From: Alistipes sp.
Lineage (GTDB): Bacteria; Bacteroidota; Bacteroidia; Bacteroidales; Rikenellaceae
Reading direction: 5' to 3'
Length of the DNA stretch: 14,041 nt
Assembly: GCA_017391185.1 (NCBI GenBank)
Contig: JAFOZN010000251.1
Location: 1 to 14,041 of the forward strand
The notes under the pieces are model-generated. The model worked only from the letters and a program-made list of their open reading frames with translations, ran no database searches and was not told where the DNA came from. A program made the position numbers and the translations under genes. Each line of letters starts with the position of its first letter. Position 1 is the stretch's first letter. Positions 290-13,297 of this stretch are shown piece by piece.

Positions 290-323
290 AAAAAATACGG
301 GTAGAATTTTACCCGTATTTTTT
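290..323. terminator. Bidirectional intrinsic terminator between BspA-like gene and SLOG gene
   Basis: A perfect inverted repeat, AAAAAATACGGGTA / TACCCGTATTTTTT, encloses a 6-base loop (304-309). The A-run on one side and T-run on the other give a U-tract in both directions. It serves both the plus-strand gene ending at 271 and the minus-strand gene ending at 330. Confidence 0.92.
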
Positions 324-329
324 GTCTAT

Positions 330-821
330 CTAAAACAGATCAAGTTGCGGATCGGGATAGAGATTTATGACGCGGCATCCAGCATGGCGAGCGCGGCGAA
401 GAGTATAGGCCGTACCTCCACGAGGCACACCATCCCACCAAGCAACTACCACCGTAGCATTATCTACCAGAAAATCATTACGCCTCAGATAGCTCCTATC
501 CGAAGGCACATCGCTCAAAAACTCCGCCCCATCGGCGATATCCGCCACCCGCTTATATTGCTCAGCATCCTCGCCTCGAAAGAGCTGAAAGAAACCCTTA
601 TGTGGAACTACGGCGATAAGTTCTACTTCAGGATGCTCCTGCTTTAGCTCAGCGACAATCTCTCCCGCCGCCAAGTCGAATCCCCAAGCCATTCCACACA
701 AAAAACGGCTATAACCCTCGGCATACAACCTACGCACCAACAAACGAAGCTCATCATCGGCCTCGTGGCTATAAGTACGGTGGCCTGTGAAGGCTACGGT
801 GATATCTTTTATCTCTTCCAT
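330..821 (-). CDS. SLOG-family (DUF1273/YpsA-like) protein with C-terminal clamp-binding motif QLDLF
   Basis: The 163-residue protein is a stand-alone Rossmann-like SLOG domain. Visible marks are the N-terminal strand ending in FTGHR (residues 11-15), the GMAWGFDLAAGE segment (43-54) where a nucleotide-type ligand is expected, VVPHKGF (71-77), RRNDFLVDNA (113-122) and the glycine motif GGTAYTLRRA (135-144). Related proteins include YpsA and DprA. SLOG domains are proposed to bind nucleotides or nucleotide derivatives, but the ligand and reaction here are unknown. The last five residues (159-163) are QLDLF, matching the bacterial beta sliding clamp-binding consensus QL(S/D)LF at an exposed C-terminus. 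The gene is monocistronic: a terminator lies 6 bases beyond its stop, and a promoter abuts its start codon so closely that the mRNA may be leaderless. The family call is firm; clamp binding is inferred from the motif. Confidence 0.88.
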   Translation of the reverse strand: MEEIKDITVAFTGHRTYSHEADDELRLLVRRLYAEGYSRFLCGMAWGFDLAAGEIVAELKQEHPEVELIAVVPHKGFFQLFRGEDAEQYKRVADIADGAEFLSDVPSDRSYLRRNDFLVDNATVVVAWWDGVPRGGTAYTLRRARHAGCRVINLYPDPQLDLF

Positions 822-1093: not shown

Positions 1094-1435
1094 ATGAGTG
1101 AACAGAATCGAGAGAGCGCAGGGATATTTTCTTCTATTATCTTCTTTGTAATCGCCATCTCGTCAGCCGTAATATTGTTAATGGCATCGGCTGTGATATG
1201 GATCGGAGAGTTGATAGGATCGGGAGCTCTGGCTTGTTTAATAGTGGCTGCAGTGCTATTGCTTATTGCATGGATGATCTATTTTTTGGCAGCTCGACAA
1301 TCAATCGAGAAATTGAATCAACATCTGGATCTTATCTATAACATTGCCTCAGCAGCCAGCAACGCCTATCACTCGGCACTCAAATTGATAAACTCCATAT
1401 TGGGAGAAACGCTATGGCCTAAAACTGAAAAGTAG
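1094..1435 (+). CDS. Small two-helix membrane protein, holin-X/YqjE-like
   Basis: 113 residues with a short polar N-terminus (MSEQNRESAG), two transmembrane helices (about 11-36 and 42-67) and a cytoplasmic, probably helical tail (68-113). The layout matches the putative actinobacterial holin-X / YqjE 'phage holin family' small proteins, which often sit next to YtxH or DUF883-like genes. Despite the label, nothing nearby is phage-like, and an envelope or stress role with the upstream YtxH protein is more likely. Family assignment rests on topology and neighbour only. Start supported by the AAAAGGAG site. Confidence 0.75.
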   Translation: MSEQNRESAGIFSSIIFFVIAISSAVILLMASAVIWIGELIGSGALACLIVAAVLLLIAWMIYFLAARQSIEKLNQHLDLIYNIASAASNAYHSALKLINSILGETLWPKTEK

Positions 1436-11191: not shown

Positions 11192-13297
11192 ATGAGCATA
11201 GAGAAGCAAATCAAGGAGTTGCGCCAAAGACTCAACCACTATAACTATCTATACTACGTGGAGAATGCCCCCGTAGTGAGCGATTATGAGTTTGATCAGA
11301 TGCTACGAGAGTTACAGGAGTTAGAGAAACAGCACCCCGAATTTGCCGACCCCAACTCTCCAACGGCCCGTGTAGGAAGTGACCTGAGTAATGCTTTCAA
11401 GAGCGTGGATCACGCCTTCCCGATGCTATCACTATCGAACACCTATTCGCTCGAAGAGCTTCACGAATGGGTAGAAAAGATCAGCAATGAGGTTGGTGAG
11501 GTGGAGTTTGTCTGCGAGCTTAAATTTGATGGTACGGCAATATCCTTGACATACGAAGATGGCAGATTACTACGAGCTGTGACACGAGGTGACGGCTCAC
11601 GAGGCGATGATGTGACGGAGAATGTGCGTACTATTCGTTCCATCCCGCTTATGCTCAACGGAGAGGATTACCCCTCTTATTTTGAGATCAGAGGTGAGAT
11701 ATTTATGCCATACGCATCGTTCGATAGACTCAATGCCGAGCGAGAGAAGAACGAAGAGCCTCCTTTTGCCAACCCTCGCAACGCTGCGGCAGGTACGCTC
11801 AAGCAGCAACAGTCGAAGATCGTAGCTCAACGTGGTCTGGATTGTACACTTTACCAGATTGCAGGCCAGAATCTGGCTTTTACATCCCACTCAGAGAGTT
11901 TAGAGGCTGCAAAAGGCTGGGGCTTTAAGATCTCGGACAAGATAAAGGTATGTCGCACCACAGCCGAGATAGATGATTTTATCAGCTATTGGGACATCGA
12001 GCGTAAGGCTCTGCCATTCCCGACCGATGGTGTGGTCATCAAGGTCAATCGCTTTAGCGACCGCAAGGCATTAGGTACAACCGCCAAAGCTCCCAAATGG
12101 GCTGTTGCATATAAATTCAAGGCCGAGCAAGCCCTCACACGACTACTCAAGGTGAGCTATCAGGTGGGACGCACGGGCGCGATAACTCCTGTAGCAAATC
12201 TTGAGCCTGTATTGTTGGCAGGCACTACCGTAAAGCGTGCTACGCTACACAACGCCGATCAGATCATGGCGTTGGATCTCAGGGAGGGCGATATGGTCTA
12301 TGTAGAGAAGGGTGGCGAGATTATCCCTAAGATTACGGGCGTAGAGATAAGTGAGCGTAAAGCCGAAAGTGAGCCACTACAATACATCACTCATTGCCCC
12401 GAATGTGGAGCAGAGCTTGTGCGCTACGAAGGCGAGGCTAAGCACTACTGCCCTAACCAAAGCCACTGCCGTCCACAGATTTTGGGACGAATTATACACT
12501 TCATACGCCGCAAGGCTATGAATATCGAGGGCTTGGGAGAGGAGACCATTGAGCTGCTTTTCGAGAATGGCCTTATCAACAATATGGCCGACCTATACGA
12601 CCTTCGCGCCGAACAACTTGCCGTATTGCCACGCTTGGGCGAAAAATCGGCCCGCAACATAATGCAGAGCTTGCAACTTTCACTCGATGTGCCATTCCAT
12701 AGAGTATTGTTTGCGTTGGGAATTCGTTTCGTGGGAGAGACTACAGCAAAGTATATCGCAGCACACTTCAAGGATATGGACTCGGTAATAAATGCCACCA
12801 AAGAGGAACTTACTCAGGCCGAAGAGGTGGGCGATAAAATTGCCGATTCTATAATAGAGTATCTGCACGATGAGCAGAATATAGAGATAATAGAGCGTCT
12901 GCGCAAGGCTGGCCTTAAATTCAAGGCTGAAGAAAAGGCTCAGAAATCCAATGTACTGGAGGGGTTGAATTTTGTTATTTCTGGAAGTTTCTCACTCCAC
13001 TCAAGAGATGAACTCAAGGCTATGATTGAAGCACATGGAGGTAAAAATCTCGCTGCCGTATCGGCCAATACTTCATATCTTTTGGCGGGAGATAAAATCG
13101 GCCCAGCCAAATTGCAGAAGGCGACAAAACTCGGCATCAAGATTATTTCTGAGGAGGAGTTCCTCAAGATGATTCTAACAAGCGACCACGACACCGAGCA
13201 AAACCCGACAGAGCAGACTAAGTCAAAGGCCGAGAATCCTACCCCACAGGAGCAGACAAAGACAAACGAGATAGTAACACAAGGTTCACTCTTTTAG
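11192..13297 (+). CDS. ligA: NAD+-dependent DNA ligase with C-terminal clamp-binding-like tail
   Basis: 701 residues. It seals nicks in duplex DNA in replication and repair using NAD+. Domains in order: Ia NAD-binding (1 to about 70, including YYVENAPVVSDYEFDQML); adenylation domain with catalytic K111 in ELKFDG (109-114); OB fold (about 320-400); zinc finger C402-x2-C405-x14-C420-x5-C426; helix-hairpin-helix region (about 430-580); and BRCT domain (about 588-661). After the BRCT comes a hydrophilic tail of about 40 residues rich in T, E, Q and K. It ends in QGSLF, close to the QL(S/D)LF sliding-clamp motif. The Shine-Dalgarno site is absent, as usual in Bacteroidota. dapA follows after 36 bases, with no terminator seen between. 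Confidence 0.97.
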   Translation: MSIEKQIKELRQRLNHYNYLYYVENAPVVSDYEFDQMLRELQELEKQHPEFADPNSPTARVGSDLSNAFKSVDHAFPMLSLSNTYSLEELHEWVEKISNEVGEVEFVCELKFDGTAISLTYEDGRLLRAVTRGDGSRGDDVTENVRTIRSIPLMLNGEDYPSYFEIRGEIFMPYASFDRLNAEREKNEEPPFANPRNAAAGTLKQQQSKIVAQRGLDCTLYQIAGQNLAFTSHSESLEAAKGWGFKISDKIKVCRTTAEIDDFISYWDIERKALPFPTDGVVIKVNRFSDRKALGTTAKAPKWAVAYKFKAEQALTRLLKVSYQVGRTGAITPVANLEPVLLAGTTVKRATLHNADQIMALDLREGDMVYVEKGGEIIPKITGVEISERKAESEPLQYITHCPECGAELVRYEGEAKHYCPNQSHCRPQILGRIIHFIRRKAMNIEGLGEETIELLFENGLINNMADLYDLRAEQLAVLPRLGEKSARNIMQSLQLSLDVPFHRVLFALGIRFVGETTAKYIAAHFKDMDSVINATKEELTQAEEVGDKIADSIIEYLHDEQNIEIIERLRKAGLKFKAEEKAQKSNVLEGLNFVISGSFSLHSRDELKAMIEAHGGKNLAAVSANTSYLLAGDKIGPAKLQKATKLGIKIISEEEFLKMILTSDHDTEQNPTEQTKSKAENPTPQEQTKTNEIVTQGSLF

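Follow-up and report, generated by a model that had tools for sequence, protein, structure and literature searches.

The gene at positions 330 to 821 of a 14,041-nucleotide stretch of DNA from Alistipes sp. (hereafter the window, which comes from a 1.95-Mb assembly) encodes a SLOG-family protein whose last five residues are QLDLF. The question that this locus raises is whether such an ending is a genuine motif for binding the replication clamp (beta-clamp, DnaN) and, if it is, what a SLOG domain could be doing there. The published clamp consensus is Q-phi-x-[LM]-[FL] or, with one more residue, Q-phi-x-[LM]-x-[FL]; LF is the strongest-binding ending, and the Q is helpful yet dispensable (PMC13254535, 2026). 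In E. coli the clamp clients include DNA ligase, Pol II/IV/V, MutS, MutL, Hda and RecB (PMC13254535). The features of the window that concern the gene and its end are the following:

330..821, minus strand: YpsA-type SLOG protein of 163 aa (ORF translation, PF06908, AF2 model, Foldseek)
333..347, minus strand: clamp-binding-type motif QLDLF, pentapeptide form (translation, ortholog tail counts; the stop is at 330-332)
348..356, minus strand: linker of variable sequence, here the PDP of NLYPDPQLDLF, joining the last strand to the motif (AF2, with the last strand at residues 150-153, and variable alignment columns)
290..323, no strand assigned: inverted repeat, putatively terminator-like (34 bp that match their own reverse complement at 94%)

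The reading frame runs from 821 to 330 on the minus strand and its final codons are CAA CTT GAT CTG TTT TAG, so that translation confirms what an earlier note on this DNA had stated, namely that the gene ends in QLDLF right before the stop. The inverted repeat lies just 3' of that stop, a position in which it may work as a terminator. Directly 3' of the stop, in a rearranged part of the window, positions 2-271 of the plus strand encode the final part of a protein, which we take to be BspA-like, with NTSNVTNMDSMF-type repeats.

The encoded protein matches the Pfam profile of YpsA (PF06908) with an E-value of 2.3e-12 and a score of 47.6 bits, the cut-off being 27.7 bits, and it does not reach the cut-off of the YpsA equivalog of NCBIfam, PRK13660 (33.2 vs 165 bits). 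It is a single-domain protein, composed of a Rossmann core that extends to about residue 154 and of a tail; the GxD/E signature is present as G47-F48-D49 and is invariant across 34 aligned SLOG proteins. The AF2 model has a mean pLDDT of 94.4, with 145 of the 163 residues at 90 or above and the last strand at residues 150-153. Confidence decreases along the tail of this monomer model, from 86 on average at residues 151-160 to 55 at residues 161-163, and the final residues are not confidently packed into the predicted SLOG core, so that the idea of the earlier note survives the refutation by core packing that the note itself had named.

Conservation of the tail was studied in 121 distinct Alistipes SLOG proteins, drawn from genome sets that overlap, those with the same last 140 residues being counted once. 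In 64 tails there is a Q-anchored penta- or hexapeptide, in 45 LF without Q and in 12 neither, four of these 12 having the motif more deeply inside the tail; among the eight proteins whose tail matches no pattern at any position, four read QL[SR]FxxL. The Q-less endings belong chiefly to one large proline-rich PxLF lineage. LF, MF or IF is followed by 1-4 more residues in 27 of the 121 tails, and as a consequence the free carboxylate is not the signal. The columns of the tail can also be read without any selection by pattern: tails of 11 residues have Q at position 7 in 14/17 cases, L at position 10 in 16/17 and F at position 11 in 16/17, and tails of 12 residues have Q at position 7 in 34/40, L, I, F or M at position 10 in 35/40 and F, L or I at position 12 in 38/40. 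Positions 4-6, 9 and 11 of these 12-residue tails are variable, and the columns are less regular in tails of 13 residues (n=17) and longer. The entropies of the Q and F positions, which the pattern itself sets to zero, carry no weight here. The earlier expectation that orthologs would conserve the C-terminal peptide and vary the preceding linker is thus correct for the clamp-type peptide and for the linker, but it has to be corrected for a minority of proteins that lost or changed the tail and for the 45/121 that have no Q.

Five-residue motifs can arise by chance, and QLDLF could accordingly be a fortuitous match in one protein. The published consensus, scanned with up to four residues allowed after the motif, is present in 19/121 Alistipes SLOG proteins and in 1/569 non-SLOG neighbour ORFs (Fisher p 2e-14, a value that ignores relatedness); when the last 12 residues were shuffled in 2000 rounds, a mean of 1.0 and a maximum of 6 of the 121 proteins matched it. 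The pair [LM]F occurs in the last six residues of 68/121 SLOG proteins vs 31/569 neighbour ORFs. Two looser sets of patterns, both picked after the tails had been viewed, gave 51/96 vs 10/570 for Q-anchored forms, one of the ten neighbour ORFs being itself a SLOG and two being LigA, and 85/96 vs 54/570 for Q-anchored or LF-type endings, the latter not being rare by themselves (48/570 neighbour ORFs). QLDLF fits the published pentapeptide, in line with its initial identification as a consensus clamp motif, and belongs to a set of ortholog tails that is enriched over both neighbour ORFs and shuffles. The motif is kept genus-wide and is commoner than in either control, which rules out an artefact of chance or of a single genome; we give such a reading almost no probability.

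The five- and six-residue forms interchange during the evolution of the gene. At least 12 changes are needed, a parsimony-type minimum that holds only for one quickly built maximum-likelihood tree, made from the core with the tail removed, in which 56 of the 156 inner branches are open and the deep joins of long branches are unreliable. Swaps between near relatives are QLDLF/QLDFGF, QLDLF/QLDLEF and QKKLF/QQKLSF, and they match the two lengths of the published clamp consensus (PMC13254535). The assembly of the window also carries a partial second SLOG copy (L035, G000:C101), 98% identical over 96 residues, whose tail is QLDFGF, and a relative from sheep rectum likewise ends in QLDFGF. The point at which the two copies diverge is:

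339, no strand assigned: breakpoint, where identity with the second copy (L035) stops inside the motif (copy-to-window comparison)

Beyond base 339 the new sequence of the window again encodes LF followed by a stop, and the sequences downstream of the two copies differ. If the motif is under selection, a clamp-type ending would be expected to survive a rearrangement, as it does here, and in this single case its survival may also be luck.

The SLOG gene belongs to the core of the genus. With a profile of 34 orthologues it was found in 71 of 72 genus genomes (the window's own and those with a completeness of 90% or more), one of the 71 copies being broken (G367); with the window protein alone as query it was found in 34/37 genus genomes, the three misses being 74-85% complete, and in 0/24 genomes of other families. 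Over the order, the genus profile matched 10/295 genomes, six of them outside the family and in part only, and Pfam YpsA matched 2/247 genomes of the class. The single full-length match outside Rikenellaceae ends at NLY, without the tail. The 80 relatives kept out of 181 are mostly Alistipes or Rikenellaceae MAGs, with a few Bacteroidales ones. The idea of a SLOG family shared by the Bacteroidales as a whole, taken for granted at the start, was rejected, since profile matches are scarce in the order and Pfam matches in the class; the family is largely specific to Rikenellaceae.

Outside Alistipes the tail follows a narrower distribution. In the related genus g26 an LF/MF-type tail is present in 11/11 proteins, five with Q, including QLDLF, QGELF and QGDLF. 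Q forms number 0 among 21 further copies, which come from eight other genera of the Rikenellaceae and, in one case, from an Alistipes genome as its second copy; this split of the other Rikenellaceae genera into those with and those without the tail was drawn after the tails had been viewed. The four proteins of g186, g195 and g197, also tallied apart from g26 and from the 21 after viewing, comprise one Q form (PDPQLSLALE), two LF endings without Q (KIFGLF, RAGELF) and one with neither. The Q motif is absent from four distinct homologues on Bacteroides plasmids or phage-like contigs and from one homologue of another family. Motif-less homologues stop at or near the last strand or carry unrelated tails, and the LF counted in the group of 21 (two cases) and in the plasmid/phage-like group (one case) are strand residues NLF, not tails. 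A few sequences stand outside the Alistipes counts: the partial second copy of the same assembly (L035/L125), a broken copy (L267), the motif-less second copy in one Alistipes genome, which was counted in the group of 21 (L266), an Alistipes-like protein filed as phage with the tail MNPTLF (L193), and remote viral proteins (L188-192, L198, L199).

The genus offers a point of comparison in its DNA ligase, which is also encoded in the window:

11192..13297, plus strand: NAD-dependent DNA ligase LigA, 701 aa, with C-terminal QGSLF at 13280-13294 (translation, Pfam, locus comparison)

In 30/30 Alistipes loci (L127-L156) the C-terminus of LigA is Q[GT]xLF preceded by a variable linker, an apparent clamp-binding tail that serves as an in-genus control. 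DnaN itself was found in 34/37 genomes and matches solved clamps over its length (best E 1.4e-73). LigA retains its Q in 13/13 checked genomes whose SLOG tail is not Q-anchored, which gives no support for a changed clamp pocket. Since the Q-less PxLF lineage coexists with a LigA that keeps Q, the affinity of SLOG for the clamp may be low there. Covariation of the SLOG and LigA tails was considered and rejected, the Q of LigA being constant in those 13 genomes. Of the 33 Alistipes genomes that have both SLOG and ligA, 10 carry them on the same contig with 1.6-21 kb between the two starts, a loose linkage.

Our main reading, to which we assign a probability of roughly 0.78, is that the QLDLF tail is a genuine and selected beta-clamp motif that probably tethers a DprA/YpsA-type SLOG domain to DnaN in Alistipes and g26. 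The tail peptide would fill the hydrophobic pocket of DnaN, and the SLOG domain would thereby sit at replication forks or on clamps that stay on the DNA once synthesis is over. Placed on the clamp, the domain would use its conserved GxR, GMAxGFD, RN and GGT loops to bind the ligand, and the ligand-bound protein would mark or protect the site or compete with other clamp clients. The ligand could be a segment of ssDNA, as in DprA, or a nucleotide of the NAD/ADP-ribose type, which has been suggested for the YpsA clade. Proteins that bind the clamp by such motifs are well known, and the Alistipes protein resembles them in having Q-phi-x-L-F or Q-phi-x-L-x-F on an accessible segment, to which the Q[GT]xLF of LigA is a related form. 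It differs from the listed clients in the attached domain, which is a YpsA/DprA-type SLOG; a client of this type is apparently new, in that no SLOG or YpsA protein was found as a clamp client in the searches made of open-licence PMC papers. If the tether is real, the clamp clients would come to include a nucleotide- or DNA-binding Rossmann domain. The conserved tether, belonging to a core gene of a genus common in the gut, would moreover give a YpsA-type SLOG its first place of action, the replication clamp.

The tail might instead have a hydrophobic role of another kind, as a C-terminal degron or protease tag, a mimic of the SSB tip or a docking end for the protein's own dimer, and in other proteins short hydrophobic C-termini do act as degrons, tags or docking ends. 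We consider this very unlikely here: one to four residues may trail LF, the listed tails have no acidic SSB-like run, and the Q anchor with alternate spacings of five and six residues suits clamp motifs (PMC13254535). The end of the tail also lies outside the confident core of the AF2 model, a monomer model that is compatible with dimer docking. If the protein is indeed clamp-bound, it could act simply by being there, occupying DnaN and damping replication or polymerase access with the ligand as a switch. This scheme is conjecture throughout and we hold it to be unlikely; a small protein with a canonical pocket motif would suit it, and overproduced B. subtilis YpsA leads to filamentation (abstract), but that filamentation is described as acting via FtsZ assembly, and that YpsA is not described as carrying a clamp tail.

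Under the preferred reading of a clamp tether, two further possibilities concern what the domain binds. Foldseek places B. subtilis YpsA first (2nx2, TM 0.82, 20% identity), followed by DprA of several species and by ShosA; with DprA and ShosA as the nearest solved folds after YpsA, ssDNA and a nucleotide are equally plausible as ligands. In DprA a basic pocket takes up the ssDNA (PMC4489622), and the tethered SLOG could be a reduced DprA that binds ssDNA close to the fork, either shielding it or passing it to RecA. In fact, a profile alignment with Alistipes DprA, of modest strength (E 8e-5, probability 60%), pairs the conserved loops of the two proteins (GHR/GTR, GMAWGFD/GLAFGID, RND/RNR, GGT/GGS). 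The SLOG locus also passes the cut-off of the Pfam DprA domain (PF02481) in 4/17 genomes; the window protein itself is not listed at E 0.01, nor among the matches of G000. In one genome (L029/L309, G024:C14) the SLOG gene and the dprA reading frame share a strand, the former stopping 82 bases ahead of the latter. However, the 163-aa protein has neither a SAM nor a winged-helix domain, as seen in its translation and AF2 model, and a separate DprA is encoded in each of the 17 genomes checked, the two genes being far apart or on different contigs in the other 16. A DprA-like function is accordingly conceivable, yet we would place it clearly under even odds.

The alternative put forward in the earlier note is a clamp-tethered sensor, or possibly a hydrolase, of nucleotides or NAD derivatives. 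NAD or ADP-ribose derivatives have been put forward as ligands of the YpsA clade (PMC6459960; PMC9503650), and the GxD/E substrate motif described for the clade (PMC6459960) is here GFD; B. subtilis YpsA is tied to oxidative stress and division (abstract), and rubrerythrin is among the neighbours of the SLOG gene in 17/58 placed loci. The conserved loops are common to DprA and cannot separate the two ligands, so that this reading too stays tentative, a little short of even odds, and no single ligand reading deserves more than that. What the earlier note said of kinship with DprA is upheld by fold and profile, and nucleotide sensing becomes just one option beside ssDNA.

Comparison with the nearest known systems gives partial likenesses. 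With YpsA of B. subtilis (PF06908, PDB 2nx2) the Alistipes SLOG shares the Pfam family, the fold and the GxD motif, and it differs in being far under the equivalog cut-off, in its clamp-type tail and in having no gpsB among its annotated neighbours. With DprA/Smf it shares a Rossmann core with GxR, G-x-A-x-G-x-D, RN and GG(T/S) loops, but it is single-domain and coexists with a separate DprA (17/17 genomes). ShosA, the DprA-like antitoxin of ShosTA, is matched weakly by PADLOC (E 3e-4) and by fold (8zva), whereas the Alistipes SLOG is a solitary chromosomal gene with no phosphoribosyltransferase among its annotated recurrent neighbours. No ShosT phosphoribosyltransferase is present in the window, and in 17 genomes none is nearer than about 21 kb on the SLOG contig; the ShosT model also matches 13/14 control genomes and is therefore not specific. 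A phosphoribosyltransferase partner of the ShosTA type was rejected, none being seen beside the Alistipes SLOG gene.

Candidate gene pairs of this kind occur elsewhere. On Bacteroides plasmids (L196:5286-6468 and L197:3416-4477) a ShosT-like phosphoribosyltransferase is directly followed by a short, motif-less YpsA-type SLOG, likely a ShosTA-like pair with a single-domain antitoxin. In one Alistipes genome (L318, G034:C4:83191-84542) a second DprA-like gene comes after a ShosT-like gene, and the two may form a ShosTA pair.

A wider evolutionary scenario can be drawn, which we find rather unlikely: a ShosA/YpsA-like SLOG of mobile elements may have joined the Rikenellaceae core by gaining a clamp tail and may now be a ligand-gated fork factor. 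SLOG bound to a nucleotide or to ssDNA would then occupy DnaN and redirect the traffic of polymerase, ligase or RecA, and a nucleotide receptor of defence type would be linked to replication. More generally, the tether would suggest a route by which a module of conflict systems could enter replication or repair.

The gene neighbourhood was analyzed for 58 of the 80 loci, which could be placed, with annotation of ten cluster representatives; among the annotated clusters of these 58 loci no conserved operon partner and no recurrent replication-gene neighbour was found. The further clusters are phosphofructokinase (22/58), rubrerythrin (17/58), a DUF5106/thioredoxin protein (15/58) and an AP-endonuclease-2/xylose-isomerase-like protein (7/58), the last being the sole cluster with a possible link to DNA repair. 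The commonest neighbour is a small upstream protein on the opposite strand (27/58 loci), which in 22 cases directly matches the protein at window positions 1094-1435. In the window, positions 839-1435 encode two small proteins divergent from SLOG, one YtxH-like and one weakly holin-like, both below the Pfam cut-offs; the second, weakly holin-like type is the one that recurs in the 27 loci.
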